Source: Candidatus Eisenbacteria bacterium (GTDB lineage: Bacteria; Orphanbacterota; Orphanbacteria; Orphanbacterales; Orphanbacteraceae). Taken from it: DNA of 56,930 nt. Below, piece after piece: positions 1 through 42,748 of this stretch. Positions within the stretch are counted from its first letter, which is position 1; each line of letters opens with the position of its first letter. The stretch covers positions 1 through 56,930 of the forward strand of contig JAFGGD010000060.1 of NCBI GenBank assembly GCA_016930695.1, read 5' to 3'. Both the position numbers and the translations under genes were made by a program. The notes under the pieces are model-generated. The model was given only the letters and a program-made list of their open reading frames with translations. It ran no database searches and had not been told where the DNA came from.

Positions 1-113
1 TCTTTCCCTTTCCGGCGCCGGATCCGATCCGTCCGGCGCGAGGTCTTTCGATCCTCTCCGGTTTCTTTCCCTTTCCGGCGCCGGATCTGATCCGTCCGGC
101 GCGAGGTCTTTCG
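1..113. repeat. 63-bp-period direct repeat (two 50-bp copies)
   Basis: Positions 1-50 and 64-113 are the same 50-bp sequence with one difference (position 25 C versus 88 T), separated by 13 bp, so the period is 63 bp. Each unit contains the palindrome CCGGCGCCGG and ends in GGTCTTTCG. The first copy starts at the window edge, so more copies may lie upstream. The end of the second copy also forms the outermost left arm of the inverted repeat at 89-268. No coding function is seen. Confidence 0.85.
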
Positions 114-268
114 TCGCGAGGCTTCGGATCGGTAGGCGAGAGGCCGAGTTGGACGAGCCGGTTTCCGGAGATGTAGCCTTAGCTACATTGAGGAAACCGG
201 CGACGGAAACGAGGCCTCGCAGCCGGCGATCCGAAGCCGCAGCAGAAAGACCGAGCGCCGGCCGGATC
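89..268. other. Large nested inverted repeat, candidate structured RNA (copy 1)
   Basis: The segment folds on itself almost end to end. Arms: 89-112 with 245-268 (21 of 24 matching), 120-131 with 227-238 (12 bp perfect), 140-145 with 213-218, 157-166 with 192-201 (10 bp perfect) and 171-177 with 182-188, closed by a CTTA tetraloop. An 11 x 11 internal loop (146-156 and 202-212) separates the last two major helices. The flanking blocks GTTGGACGAGCCG and CGGCGACGGAAACG recur unchanged at 42128-42140 and 42177-42190, where the helices differ by compensatory changes. Either strand could be the transcribed one. No promoter or poly-T terminator was recognised. It could instead be a repetitive palindromic DNA element. 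Confidence 0.7.
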
Positions 269-587
269 AAATGAGGCCGTGCACCTTTCTTCGACCCTCA
301 CCAACGGAGCGTAAAACGAGAAGACGACTCAGGCCAAGCTCACCCGCGGCGCATGGCTGAGCCCGCTTACCGCTGCTACCTTCCGGTCCTGACGGGGTTC
401 ACGCGCCGCCATCGCGCGGGACCCGACCGTCAACGCCGCTTCTCGCTCCCTGCCTCCGCCGAGCCGAGCCTCGGAAAGGAATTCAACCCCGCTATAGCGG
501 ATTGCGGGTTCAGGGCACCGCTACCTCCCCGTCTAGCACGACCTTTCGATGGCGTCCGGGCGCGGTTCGTTTCGGGTGAAATGGAGG
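269..587. other. Intergenic, no gene recognised
   Basis: This stretch lies downstream (in the transcription direction) of the tRNA-Ala gene. Short open frames exist on both strands, but they lack a ribosome binding site and recognisable protein character. No terminator or repeat was identified with confidence. Confidence 0.4.
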
Positions 588-37892: not shown

Positions 37893-39147
37893 CCAGGACC
37901 GTCTCTTTCACCTGTTCCCGTTCCCGGCGATCTTGGATCGCGATCTCGAGGGCGATCTCGATCCGAACGGTTCCGGACCCGGCGTCGAGGCTGATCGGCA
38001 CGCGGACGACCCGGCGCTCCTCATCGTCCTTGCGGACGCCGGAGGCGGGCGATCCGGTCGAGACCTCCGCCCGGGGAGTCTCTTGCGCGACCGGGGGGCG
38101 TTCCGCGGAGCCGGACCGCAAGGCGGTTCCCGGCTCCCGCCGGACCAGGGGGTTTTCTTCTACTCCGCCCTGGGGCGATCGTCCCGGAGAAGCACCGGCG
38201 CCGGCGCCCTCCCGTAAGAGCGGATCATCATAGGACTCCACCCGGCCATGCAGCGTAACACGCCCCTCCGGAGCAGGACATTGTTCACCGGTCCGACCTT
38301 CCTCCCCCAGAGCCGCGGAATCTCCCTCTCGCCGCACCGGTTTCTCATGGTCCTTCTCCCCCGCGGGCCGTGATCGGCCGTCCGCCGTTCCCCCCGTTTT
38401 CGCCCACTGCTCGATCGAAGCGCTGACGCGGACCACCTCGTCCCCCGGTCCGCGCGGGCCTCCCGCTTCCGCGGCGCCCGCGAAGCGCGGATCGGGAAGC
38501 TCGCCGGCGGTCTCTTTACCGCCCTGGGACTTCTCCCCCTCCGCCTCGCCGTTTTCCCCGCTCAACGTCCTCTCGAGGCTCTTGAAAAGCGCGTCGATCG
38601 CCGCGCGGAACGTCTCCCACACACCGTCTCCTTTCACGGCGACCGCCTCGAAGAACGGCCAACCCCGCGGATTCAGATCCGCGTTCAATTGATCCACCGA
38701 AAGCGCGTTCGGCAGGTCTCTTTTGTTGAACTGAAGGATGACCGGGATCTTGGCCGTGGAGAGCTGATATTCCGCCAGGTTCTGTTCCAGGTTCGCCATG
38801 CTCTCCCGGTTCGCCTGCCGGAGGGCCGGATCGGAATCGGCCACGAAGATGATGGCGTCGGTCCCCTTGAGGACCAGTTTGCGCGTGGCGTTGTAGTGCA
38901 CCTGCCCCGGCACGGTGTAAAGCAGGAAACGGGTGTCGAATCCCTTGATCTGTCCCGCGTTCACCGGCAGGAAATCGAAGAAGAGCGTCCGGTCGCTTCG
39001 GGTTTTCATGGAGACCATTTTGCCGCGGCGGGTTTCGGGCACCTGCCCGAAGATCTGCTCGAGGTTGGTGGTCTTCCCGGAGAGACCGGGTCCGTAGTAA
39101 ACGACCTTCGCGTTGATTTCCTTGCCGCTGTAATTGAAAACGACCAT
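37867..39147 (-). CDS. MglA-like small GTPase with long disordered tail
   Basis: 426 residues. Residues 1-195 are a Ras-like GTPase of the MglA family: P-loop GPGLSGKTT (19-27), switch region with SMKTRSDRTLFFDFLP, TVPGQVHYNATR, and the guanine-specificity motif NKRD. Known: MglA sets cell polarity and drives gliding or type IV pilus reversal, switched by MglB. No mglB is present here. Unusual: after the GTPase come about 180 residues of charged, low-complexity linker and a final short beta-rich segment (VVRVPISLDAGSGTVRIEIALEIAI); MglA proteins normally end near residue 195. The tail may bind a partner. The ATG at 39147 begins MVVFNYSGKEINAKVVYYG, typical for the family. Confidence 0.92.
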   Translation of the reverse strand: MVVFNYSGKEINAKVVYYGPGLSGKTTNLEQIFGQVPETRRGKMVSMKTRSDRTLFFDFLPVNAGQIKGFDTRFLLYTVPGQVHYNATRKLVLKGTDAIIFVADSDPALRQANRESMANLEQNLAEYQLSTAKIPVILQFNKRDLPNALSVDQLNADLNPRGWPFFEAVAVKGDGVWETFRAAIDALFKSLERTLSGENGEAEGEKSQGGKETAGELPDPRFAGAAEAGGPRGPGDEVVRVSASIEQWAKTGGTADGRSRPAGEKDHEKPVRREGDSAALGEEGRTGEQCPAPEGRVTLHGRVESYDDPLLREGAGAGASPGRSPQGGVEENPLVRREPGTALRSGSAERPPVAQETPRAEVSTGSPASGVRKDDEERRVVRVPISLDAGSGTVRIEIALEIAIQDRREREQVKETVLVDTGGEWK

Positions 39148-39267
39148 GGAGTTTTGCCCCCTTGCCCGGCCCGGCTTGAGATTTGCTCGTGTAGGTACCT
39201 ATCAGGATCGGCAAGAGCCATGCCACGGACCGGCGGCGGCGGTCCCGAGAAGAAAAGAGCGAACTCC

Positions 39268-42024
39268 ATGCGCTGCAACGGATTACAAACTGGATTCACG
39301 AGGCGTTTGGGAACCCCCCGCCGGCCTCGTTTCCCGCTTCGCGAAACGCATGATCGGGCCGTGCATTCTGCGCGACTTCTGGGGTTCTCCCTGGTCTTCC
39401 TGGCACTCCTCGGGGCGGCCGTGGGAGGGGAAGGACTCCGAGCCCCGGATCCCCGCGGCGCGACCGTTACGGACCGAGAGGACGCCTTCGGCGGTGATTC
39501 CTCCGCCGGGAAGGTGGCCCTCTCTCCCGCCGGTGAGGCGCGCGCGCTCGTCGAGGGGGGACGATCGAGGATCCTGATCCGCTGGAGAGGGAAGCCGGAT
39601 CACGCGGCGATGGACCGCGCCGGTTTTCTTTTAACCCAATACGTCCCCGGCGGCGCATGGATCACCCGCGTGGATGAGAACGCGGACTGGGAGGCGGTGG
39701 AAGGGGCGATCCTGTGGGCCGGCGCGATCCACGGCGAGACGAAAATCGATCCGGCCGTGGCCGAGAGAGGGGCGGGGAAGACCGGCGGCGTGGCGGAGGT
39801 CCGCGTGAAGCTGCACGGCGACGTGGGACTCGGCGAGGGGGCGCGTCTCATCCGTCTTCTCGGCGGATCGGTGCGCGGTGCGCGGAGCGTTTTTCACGGC
39901 TTCGATGTCGAGGTCCCCTCCGCCGCGCTGGAGGAACTGGCGGGCCGGGACGAGGTGCTCTGGATCGGCGCCCCCCTCCCTCCGCCGGTCCCCGCCAACG
40001 ACGGCATCCGCGTGAACGGCAACGTGGACTCGGCCCTCGCCGCCCCCTGCGCCCTCACCGGCGCGGGCGCCCGCCCCGGAATCTGGGACGGCGGGCGCGT
40101 GGACGCGCACACCGATTTCACCGGCCGGCTGACGGTGGTGGATGCCGCATCGGTTTCGGATCACGCCACCCACGTCGCGGGAACGCTCGGGGGCTCCGGC
40201 GCGATGAGCGCCGTCCGGGGAGGGACGTCGCTGCAATGGAAGGGGGTCGCCCCCGCCTGCAGCCTCTTCTCCTACGATTTCTACGGAGACGTCCCTTCCG
40301 AGTACGGGTCGGCGATCGCGGTGTACGACATCGACCTCACGAGCAACTCCTGGGTGCTCGACGTGGACGAGGCCGGCTATCACAACTGCTACCTCTACGG
40401 CGACTACGACGCCTACGCGCCGGAATTCGACGAGGTGGTGACCGGTGTCTTCGGCAAGAGGATCCCGGTGGTCTGCGCCGCCGGCAACGAGCGAAACGAC
40501 GGCGACTGTTCCATCGACGCGCGCAGCGGGTACGCCTGCGTCCCGCCGCCGGCGACGGCGAAGAACGTGATCACCGTCGGCGCGATCCACACCAACAACT
40601 CCGCCATGACCACCTTCTCCGGATACGGCCCGGTGGACGACGGCCGGATCAAGCCGGATATCGTGGCGGGGGGATGCCAGTCCACATGGGACTATTCGAT
40701 CCGCTCCACCTGGCCGGGAGACACGTACGGCGCCAATTACTATTGCGGCACGTCGATGGCGACGCCCGCCGTGAGCGGCGCCGTCTGTCTGCTCATCGAG
40801 TGCTGGCGGACCGGACGGGGGGACCGTCTGGAAGCCCACGAGGCGTGGGAGCCGGGGAAGGCGGCCGCAGGCGCGGACGCGGATCCCCTCCCATCGACGC
40901 TGAAGGCGATCCTCATCGGCACCGCCGATGACCTCGGGAGCCCGGGGCCGGACTACCGGTTCGGTTTCGGCAGGATGAATGTGATGCGCGCGGTGGAGAG
41001 AACCTGCGACGGGACGATCGTCGAGGACAGCTTGACGGACGGCTCCACCAGCGACTGGAGCTTCTCCGTGCCGGCCGGCTTCCCGGATATTCGGGTCACA
41101 CTGGTCTGGGACGATCCGGCGGCGGTCCCACTCGCCGACCCGGCCCTCGTGAACGACCTCGATCTGGTGTTGATCCCCCCCTCCGGGCCGCCCTGTTACC
41201 CATGGGTTCTCGACCCGGCGAACCCGGCCCTCGGCGCCTCCACCGGCGAGGATCATCTGAACAATGTGGAACAGGTCGAGGTGAGCGCGCCCGTGGCGGG
41301 CGTCTGGACGGCGCGGATCACCGGAACGGATGTTCCCGTCGGCGTCTATCAGAAGTTCTCCCTCGTCGGGATCGACACGCTTCCGCCCGCCGAACCGGAT
41401 TCCTTCGAGACGGACGCGGCGGAGGACAGCTCCATCGGGATCGGCTGGGAGCGGCCGGCGGCGCTCGACTACGCGGGCGCGCTGCTGGTCCGCTCCGCGA
41501 CGGCGATCGCGTGGGCCCCCGTCGACGGAGAAGCGTACGCGCCCGGCCAGTCCCTCGGCGGAGGCGCGATCGTGGTCGATACGGGCGACGCGTGCGCCAC
41601 CGTCGACTCCGGACTCGCCCCCGGAACGCTCTACTATTACGCCGCCTTCTCCTACGATCGGGCGAAGAACTACTCCCCGGCCTCGACGACGGAACGGTCC
41701 ACCACGGGAGGCTGCACCGCCGTTCTTCTCGGCGGAGACGTGCCGGCGGCTCTCCGTCTCCACCCGGCCCGGCCGAATCCCTTCAACCCGACCACACACC
41801 TCCGGTTCGACATGCCCCGGAGCGGTCGCGTGAAGCTCGCCGTCTATGACATCGCCGGCCGGCTGGTCCGGACCCTTCTGGACGAGGAAGTCGGCGCGGG
41901 ACGCTACGAGGAGACATGGAACGGCGACGACGGCCGCGGCTCCCCCGCCGCCTCCGGCGTCTACTTCGCGCGCCTCCACGCCCTCGACCGCGTCGAGACT
42001 TCCAAGCTGATCCTCGTCCGCTAG
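39268..42024 (+). CDS. Secreted subtilisin-family (S8) protease with FlgD-like sorting tail
   Basis: 918 residues from the ATG at 39268; the start is uncertain because the signal-like hydrophobic stretch (LLGFSLVFLALLGAAVGG) begins about 33 residues in, and a GTG at 39360 is possible. Seen: a propeptide-like region to residue 260, then the S8 triad: Asp274 in GIWDGG, His299 in SDHATHVAGT and Ser496 in CGTSMATP; VVCAAGNE supplies the oxyanion Asn region. A P-domain-like or jelly-roll region with WDDPA follows, then an FnIII-like segment, and the FlgD-Ig-like tail (NPFNPTTHLRFD...SKLILVR). Probably acts outside the cell on proteins. It is alone on the plus strand, and the following intergenic region holds two large palindromes. 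Confidence 0.9.
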   Translation: MRCNGLQTGFTRRLGTPRRPRFPLRETHDRAVHSARLLGFSLVFLALLGAAVGGEGLRAPDPRGATVTDREDAFGGDSSAGKVALSPAGEARALVEGGRSRILIRWRGKPDHAAMDRAGFLLTQYVPGGAWITRVDENADWEAVEGAILWAGAIHGETKIDPAVAERGAGKTGGVAEVRVKLHGDVGLGEGARLIRLLGGSVRGARSVFHGFDVEVPSAALEELAGRDEVLWIGAPLPPPVPANDGIRVNGNVDSALAAPCALTGAGARPGIWDGGRVDAHTDFTGRLTVVDAASVSDHATHVAGTLGGSGAMSAVRGGTSLQWKGVAPACSLFSYDFYGDVPSEYGSAIAVYDIDLTSNSWVLDVDEAGYHNCYLYGDYDAYAPEFDEVVTGVFGKRIPVVCAAGNERNDGDCSIDARSGYACVPPPATAKNVITVGAIHTNNSAMTTFSGYGPVDDGRIKPDIVAGGCQSTWDYSIRSTWPGDTYGANYYCGTSMATPAVSGAVCLLIECWRTGRGDRLEAHEAWEPGKAAAGADADPLPSTLKAILIGTADDLGSPGPDYRFGFGRMNVMRAVERTCDGTIVEDSLTDGSTSDWSFSVPAGFPDIRVTLVWDDPAAVPLADPALVNDLDLVLIPPSGPPCYPWVLDPANPALGASTGEDHLNNVEQVEVSAPVAGVWTARITGTDVPVGVYQKFSLVGIDTLPPAEPDSFETDAAEDSSIGIGWERPAALDYAGALLVRSATAIAWAPVDGEAYAPGQSLGGGAIVVDTGDACATVDSGLAPGTLYYYAAFSYDRAKNYSPASTTERSTTGGCTAVLLGGDVPAALRLHPARPNPFNPTTHLRFDMPRSGRVKLAVYDIAGRLVRTLLDEEVGAGRYEETWNGDDGRGSPAASGVYFARLHALDRVETSKLILVR

Positions 42025-42106: not shown

Positions 42107-42206
42107 GAGGGCGGGGTCGGAGGGTCTGTTGGACGAGCCGCTTCGCGAGGCGTAGCCGTCGCTACGGTGAGCGGAGCGGCGACGGAAACGGGCCCCCGCG
42201 ATCCTC
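42107..42206. other. Candidate structured RNA element, copy 2
   Basis: Same architecture as 89-268. Helices: 42107-42110 with 42203-42206, 42111-42114 with 42196-42199, 42122-42126 with 42191-42195, a 10 x 10 internal loop, 42137-42146 with 42171-42180 (10 bp, one G-U), a 3 x 3 loop and 42151-42156 with 42161-42166 around a CGTC tetraloop. The 13-base GTTGGACGAGCCG and the 14-base CGGCGACGGAAACG match copy 1 exactly, while helix positions differ by paired changes. It stands between the subtilase stop (42024) and the convergent gene ending at 42335. Confidence 0.7.
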
Positions 42207-42268
42207 TCACTTCTTCGGTCTGCATTTTCCCCGCCTACTTCTCTTTTCTTCTTCTTTCTTCTTCTTCG

Positions 42269-42346
42269 GTGCGGCGGTGAGGGGGGATCGTTCGGGACTC
42301 CGAATCCGCAGTAGGAATCCCGGACGATCCCCCCTCACCGCCGCAC
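42269..42346. repeat. 33-bp-arm inverted repeat overlapping a stop codon
   Basis: The segment 42269-42301 pairs with 42314-42346 over 33 bp with two G-U-type differences and a 12-nt loop. The right arm covers the last three codons and stop (VRR-stop) of the minus-strand gene 42335-42748, so the gene's 3' end is mirrored downstream. Neither side has a T-run, so it is not a classic terminator. A polypyrimidine tract (42232-42267) adjoins it. Confidence 0.85.
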
Positions 42347-42748
42347 CCAGACGCCGGGAGTCTCGCTCAGCTTAGGCATCTCCTCGGCGTGCCCGCCCGC
42401 CCGTCGATAGTGGGAAACGAAGACGTCCCGAATGCGGCGATAGACGTCCGGGTCGCCGGAGGGGAAATAACGGACCTGCTGGTGGAGCATGCCGTCCTCT
42501 TCGGAGAAGAAGAAGAGCTCCACCTGTGTCACCGCTTCGAAGTCGATGCCGGCGTAACTCGACCGGGTGGCGGCGCCCCTCTCGAACCAAAGAGAGGTCA
42601 CACGACGATCCACGGAGAACCCATGACGGTTTTCCATGAGGAACTTCCAGAGTTCGAAGATGTCGAGGGGCACATAGCGTGTGGTGGGTTCCGTCGGGGA
42701 GGTGTCTTCTCTCGACACCAGACAGCGGACGATCTTCTCCGTCGCCAT
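42335..42748 (-). CDS. Small cytosolic protein of unknown function
   Basis: 137 residues from the ATG at 42748 (GGGAGGGGGGAG upstream); longer in-frame extensions run through the promoter. No signal peptide or TM helix. Seen: a compact alpha/beta sequence (VPLDIFELWKFLMENRHGFS, VTQVELFFFSEEDGMLHQQV, DVYRRIRDVFVSHYRRAGG). Family not recognised. It has one of the best promoters of the window (42776-42805) and a long palindrome across its stop codon, so it may be strongly expressed and its mRNA end protected. Confidence 0.8.
   Translation of the reverse strand: MATEKIVRCLVSREDTSPTEPTTRYVPLDIFELWKFLMENRHGFSVDRRVTSLWFERGAATRSSYAGIDFEAVTQVELFFFSEEDGMLHQQVRYFPSGDPDVYRRIRDVFVSHYRRAGGHAEEMPKLSETPGVWVRR

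Follow-up and report, generated by a model that had tools for sequence, protein, structure and literature searches.

Probable mobile, MITE-like palindromes with covarying helices at gene 3' ends in a Candidatus Eisenbacteria genome and in other phyla

The window analysed here, a stretch of 56,930 nt of contig JAFGGD010000060.1 from Candidatus Eisenbacteria bacterium, carries at its left end a gene for the bacterial large SRP RNA and, next to it, an element that folds as a single hairpin of about 180 nt (copy 1; -124.9 kcal/mol, z -12.8). The + strand of copy 1 is its best-folding strand and is antisense to the SRP RNA gene. Less complete copies are found at the very start of the window and farther along (Table 1). 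The earlier note had described copies 1 and 2 as a pair of like elements. This holds insofar as both are long hairpins (copy 2 with z -3.3), but only copy 1 is of full length and copy 2 is a truncated core. Two strings said to be shared are indeed identical in both copies (GTTGGACGAGCCG at 148-160 and 42128-42140, CGGCGACGGAAACG at 198-211 and 42177-42190), and the compensatory helix changes quoted between the copies are present. The internal loops are conserved as proposed, but the recurrent ones are mostly asymmetric (GA/GCA, GGA/GA) and not 3 x 3. In the third copy, the remaining arms measure 34 nt and are 94% complementary; two Rfam matches to EBv-sisRNA-2 at this place, on both strands, reflect a GC-rich remnant palindrome instead of a viral RNA. 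Positions 38689-42024 of the window encode a large secreted subtilase (Peptidase_S8) with a FlgD-Ig domain at the C-terminus.

Table 1. Copies of the element, parts of copy 1 and the neighbouring RNA gene in the window.
Feature	Position	Strand	Score
Partial copy, left arm and terminus; 98% identity to 64-113	1..50	+	
Copy 1, full, long imperfect hairpin	88..268	+	covariance model, 157 bits
Left arm, copy-specific sequence, pairs with 245-268	88..111	+	
Left subterminal loop motif CGTCGCGAGG, conserved; also in other phyla	112..121	+	
Internal-loop strand GTTGGACGAGCCG, conserved	148..160	+	
Apex CCGGAG-ATGTAGC-CTTA-GCTACAT-TGAGG; the portion whose sequence is conserved between phyla	165..193	+	
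Internal-loop strand CGGCGACGGAAACG, conserved	198..211	+	
Right subterminal loop motif CCGCAGCAGAA, conserved; also in other phyla	237..247	+	
Right arm; its end lies 8 nt from the SRP RNA 3' end	245..268	+	
Bacterial large SRP RNA gene, 3' end facing copy 1	277..541	-	RF01854, 186.7 bits
Copy 2, truncated; only the inner part of the hairpin (core) is left	42120..42198	+	covariance model, 48 bits, E 7.6e-7
Third copy, a remnant left by deletion; the core is missing and self-complementary arms flank the right terminus CCGCAGTAGGAATCC	42268..42347	+	

The family is far larger than the two copies first supposed. A blastn search with copy 1 retrieved about ten more copies from its own genome, one of them inserted in the loop of another, and a covariance model built from nine copies raised the number in this genome of 3.78 Mb (G000) to about 27 copies of full or nearly full length, besides fragments. 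Several of its contigs end in the element and fragments often lie at contig ends; the element explains the repeated assembly breaks in these MAGs. The covariance-model search of relatives that the earlier note had recommended yielded additional copies with many compensatory changes. Within the phylum (seven genomes), the model matched 61 times in G006, 33 times in G003 and once in G004, and no match to the element was obtained in G001, G002 or G005. The exact core pattern failed as a detector of the family, matching only the two window copies in 60 relatives, because the stems vary. Scanning 84,980 species genomes with a pattern gave matches in G006 (Gemmatimonadetes bacterium DeMMO4_6, JAGUYC01), Ca. 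Eisenbacteria RS_13_32, Saprospirales PLM2.Bin40, Nitrospiraceae S06.Bin014, and Planctomycetota S40-2; all matches are long hairpins, and three are multi-copy. A model of the apex, applied to 386 genomes, matched ten further genomes outside the family. Nearly all of the matches inspected are hairpin apices whose + strand is more stable by about 12-50 kcal/mol; one distant match (L278 in G075) lacks an element-like fold and was treated as chance. The element occurs in sister genera, Ca. Eisenbacteria, Saprospirales, Planctomycetota, a Nitrospiraceae MAG, and about ten other families. The taxon names of the MAGs are used as deposited, and misbinning could partly account for shared elements, but the location of many copies on long gene-bearing contigs argues against this. 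Copies in G060 (L195-L203), G062 (L196-L206), and G157 (L274) combine the same apex with other outer loops (..GTGAAGATGGGATGCGA..), and this second structural class suggests that subfamilies exist.

Structure is maintained in these copies while sequence changes. In an alignment of 23 window-genome copies including the arms, 62 of the 70 consensus pairs show a two-sided change that keeps the pair. Paired cells amount to 94.6%, a value that falls to 70.6 +/- 0.7% on shuffling and to 46.5% or less when the partners are slid, and the covariation score is 0.674 versus 0.206 (shuffles) and no more than 0.18 (slid partners). The arms of most window-genome copies are copy-specific, yet remain paired along 15-25 bp. 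The fixed parts are loops, namely CGTCGCGAGG/CCGCAGCAGAA, GA/GCA near GAGGCGAGAGG/CCTCGCAGCC, and GGACGAG/GCGACGGA, together with the apex (CCGGAG..GTAGC-NNNN-GCTAC..GAGGAA). The internal loops are purine-rich and stay unchanged while the helices vary, and most of the fixed loops may be interpreted as tandem G.A mismatches plus an additional base. The suggestion of a possible new RNA or repeat family with selected structure is thus borne out: further copies covary, the structure extends across phyla, and the proposed Rfam comparison returned no family match for the element above the gathering score.

The two strands are not equivalent. When pairing was scored without favouring either of them, the + strand of the window-genome copies contained 77 G.U against 27 A.C combinations (34 versus 8 columns, p 7e-5). 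The corresponding ratios are 34:8 in Saprospirales, 38:9 in Planctomycetota, and 33:20 in Nitrospiraceae, where the orientation had been set from sequence motifs and not from energy. An excess of G.U over A.C on one strand only implies selection for the folding of that strand. The sister genus shows only a weak, non-significant bias (87:66), and the strand constraint is not visible in these young copies, which are the most clearly mobile set.

The position of the element relative to genes is also oriented. The counts of gene ends depend on a simple gene caller based on codon bias. In the window genome, the right end lies within 20 nt of a called stop codon in 13 copies, and in L045 as judged by eye, and it adjoins five RNA genes (SRP RNA, the 5S rRNA operon, tRNA-Gln, -Leu, and -Gly). 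Neither a stop codon nor an RNA gene was found in this position at the left ends of the window-genome copies. In the sister genus (g4), a stop codon coincides with the terminal TA-G at 31 right ends as opposed to 10 left ends. In the other phyla, the right neighbour presents its end in 15 of 19 cases (its start in four), and the left neighbour its start in 15 of 20. The folding strand is therefore usually antisense to the neighbouring genes, and the strand under selection is the one that lies antisense at the gene 3' end. Downstream of the 23S-5S rRNA operon (L036, contig C47 of the window genome, 438-765), an ordinary intrinsic terminator with a U-tract directly precedes the element.

Some of these positions are old. 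The copies behind tRNA-Gln(ctg) and tRNA-Leu(gag) are orthologous in G000, G006, and G003: the alignment covers the element and the tRNA but does not extend into the flank beyond, and the helices have changed on both sides. At the SRP locus, five other relatives with a match run from the SRP RNA directly into dnaX without an element, whereas in the window the SRP RNA is followed by the element and the contig end and not by dnaX. Thus, the window copy represents a lineage gain or a rearrangement. Such loci bear on the possibility, which cannot be set aside even if it is not favoured, that the element is a structured non-coding RNA transcribed from the + strand and acting at gene 3' ends, as an antisense regulator or as an insulator against antisense transcription, with mobility being secondary. 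In every phylum one strand tolerates G.U and avoids A.C, as RNA helices do; the orthologous copies at the two tRNA loci were kept, with compensatory changes between genera, where the flank was not; and SRP RNA, 5S rRNA, and tRNA genes are adjoining. However, neither a promoter nor a terminator was identified on the + strand, expression data are lacking, the left-hand neighbours are not conserved, and the five relatives without an element between SRP RNA and dnaX indicate that it is not required there.

Mobility is directly documented in the relatives. Copies measure about 180-195 nt, or about 245 nt in module variants. Most of those in the sister genus share the terminal repeat TA-GCCTGGATTATGCACG, and terminal repeats of the form TA[AG]CC[CT]G[GC]ATTAT[GT]CA are common to several phyla. 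For 12 insertion sites in G006, the element was removed in silico and the restored site was searched in G003. Uninterrupted orthologous sites were recovered for 6 of the 12, a seventh being a poor match, and at some of the loci the element is present in both genomes. Two empty sites are exact (L098, ..ATCGC-TA-GGAGG..; L123, ..CGGC-TA-ATAGC..). At L123 different bases adjoin the TA to its left and right, which shows a duplication of just 2 bp; the element of the relatives inserts at TA with a 2-bp TA duplication. For those window-genome copies that have copy-specific arms and therefore lack the standard terminal repeat, mobility is inferred. On contig C35 of this genome a nested copy splits the host loop at ..CCT-TA-GC.. 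and has TA/TT flanks. The element is thus mobile and MITE-like and not a plain RNA gene, and it is undecided whether the folded strand plays its role as RNA or as ssDNA. Some copies are extended, either by an apical hairpin module of about 63 nt or by another module on the right-hand side. The orthologous pairs L089/L119 and L112/L134 differ in the presence of the apical module, which must therefore have been gained or lost in place. Six G003 copies (L143, L144, L146, L148, L150, and L151) have one or two additional hairpin modules. In L056 (G000:C41:52923-53127), the apical module looks inverted compared with the sister genus, as if the inner part had been flipped by recombination between the arms.

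In the few genomes tested, no transposase with matching ends came to light. G060 and G061 contain solo terminal repeats, which were considered as ends of a larger transposon and rejected, as no transposase lies behind them. Contig C27 of the window genome (L258, 560-960 and 1530-1600) contains a 200-aa RAYT (Y1_Tnp) gene with a palindromic repeat of its own, AAAGGTATCTGGTTACG, which constitutes a separate REP family. Single-strand transposition of the HUH type (Y1, RAYT-like) would use the folded + strand as ssDNA substrate, and the apparent TA duplication would consist of the left target TA and the TA at the element's right end. The strand-specific hairpin would suit this mechanism, and Y1_Tnp occurs in all four element-bearing members of the phylum and in none of the three without the element, a distribution expected by chance in 1 of 35 cases. 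The link is circumstantial, however, as RAYT genes are not flanked by the element and that of the window genome has the short repeat mentioned above on its flanks. Moreover, Saprospirales G060 and Nitrospiraceae G061, genomes whose completeness is not stated, showed no Y1_Tnp, and long terminal inverted repeats are atypical of the class, so that an HUH mechanism appears unlikely. Similar doubt attaches to an origin as a MITE of the IS630/Tc1-mariner type, a dead internal derivative of a DDE transposon whose structure is only a by-product of the palindrome. While the TA duplication, terminal inverted repeats, size, and nested insertion all agree with such an origin, DDE_3 transposase is absent from five of the six element-bearing genomes searched, and a by-product would neither fix asymmetric loops nor give a strand-specific G.U bias.

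The covariation itself might have arisen without selection, by templated correction within palindromes (hairpin gene conversion). The arms of young sister-genus copies do vary in concert within each copy, and the process may contribute in the outer arms. As a general cause it is nevertheless quite improbable, because it would erase mismatched loops, yet the loops are fixed, and because it is strand-neutral, yet G.U exceeds A.C. That the element terminates transcription of the upstream gene or stabilises its 3' end can hardly be maintained, despite the location directly behind genes including those for 5S, SRP RNA, and tRNAs, since the sense strand, with its A.C mismatches, is the unselected one, the flanks inspected show no U-tract behind the hairpin on this strand, and several copies (e.g., L036) are already preceded by an ordinary terminator with a U-tract.

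The element, which inserts at TA, nests, has spread in many copies, and combines covarying helices with fixed purine loops, probably represents a non-autonomous, MITE-like family of mobile palindromes whose folded single strand is recognised in trans. The recognition step is inferred. The folded strand, either RNA or ssDNA exposed during replication, would be the form bound by a trans-acting protein, with the conserved apex and the loops of tandem G.A type as the presumed contact sites. Recognition of a folded single strand would explain why structure is kept and sequence is not. Gene ends might be favoured because TA is part of TAA and TAG stops; since the element starts with G, its insertion at TA would recreate a TAG stop. 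Insertions that place the folding strand in an mRNA may have been lost more often. That old copies behind tRNA-Gln and tRNA-Leu were held across genera suggests a local role, for example in 3'-end shielding. In its widest form the interpretation remains tentative, although it deserves consideration: the family may be an undescribed cross-phylum class of mobile elements that rely on the folding of one strand, as structured RNA or ssDNA, for their mobility or for their success as parasites. In such a class, the stems would change rapidly while the tandem G.A loops and the apex stay fixed, an unidentified enzyme would mobilise the elements, and in places they would be kept as fixed elements behind stable-RNA genes.

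Palindromic repeats of small size are commonly regarded as debris of a single lineage, and their hairpins as incidental. In the present family, structure and not sequence is kept, on one strand only and in several phyla, in an element that moves. It has long been asked whether hairpins of this kind are recognised in the form of folded single strands, and what recognises them. This question can now be tested directly, and the covariance model and the two orthologous tRNA loci are resources for this purpose. No match to the element was obtained in plasmids, phages, and viral contigs, and the open literature yielded nothing relevant for the terminal and apex strings except unrelated primer-like matches. 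A match to a known REP/RAYT or a transposon end, which according to the earlier note would have refuted a new family, did not appear. Integron attC sites are sequence-variable but structure-conserved hairpins just behind stop codons, the antisense strand of which folds. The element resembles them in all these respects, but it ends in GCTAG/TA, lacks the GTTRRRY core, and occurs as single TA insertions without gene cassettes. Membership was rejected, since RYYYAAC/GTTRRRY boxes are lacking and the ends are mostly GGCTAG and only occasionally GTTA. REP/BIME sequences with RAYT are GTAG- and CGTC-tagged repeats forming short hairpins of 20-40 bp (PMC3733652). The element shares with them a palindromic, extragenic, strand-specific hairpin, but is 5-9 times longer, has a TA duplication and terminal repeats, and is not adjacent to RAYT genes, which carry other repeats. 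It was excluded from the REP/RAYT group, as its unit of about 180 nt is not a GTAG/CGTC-tagged hairpin of 20-40 bp and RAYT is not flanked by it. YPAL/RU-2 of Yersinia is a mobile palindrome of about 168 nt that targets sites near dyad symmetry, but it has no TA termini and makes duplications of 3-26 bp, as opposed to the 2-bp TA of the element (PMC2229807).

The nearest kind is the TA-terminated bacterial MITE, with the mobiliser not identified. An autonomous transposon with the same ends is usual for TA-target MITEs and is not needed for membership. The element meets the criteria as a short, non-coding, dispersed unit with terminal inverted repeats and with TA duplication at L098 and L123. 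Among the reviewed TA-targeting bacterial MITEs, Correia/NEMIS, ERIC/IRU, and RUP form long stem-loop transcripts, and the effects of ERIC depend on orientation (PMC2229807). Like them, the element is shorter than about 200 bp, non-coding, dispersed, and intergenic, with TA termini and duplication. No sequence relation to Correia, ERIC, or RUP was seen, and a cognate transposon was not found in the few genomes tested; the element differs from them in helices that covary with one strand selected, in apex and terminal motifs that recur in several phyla, and in its location at gene 3' ends in one orientation. Relative to known MITEs, what is new is the conservation of apex and ends across phyla, the strand-specific covariation, and the antisense placement at gene ends.
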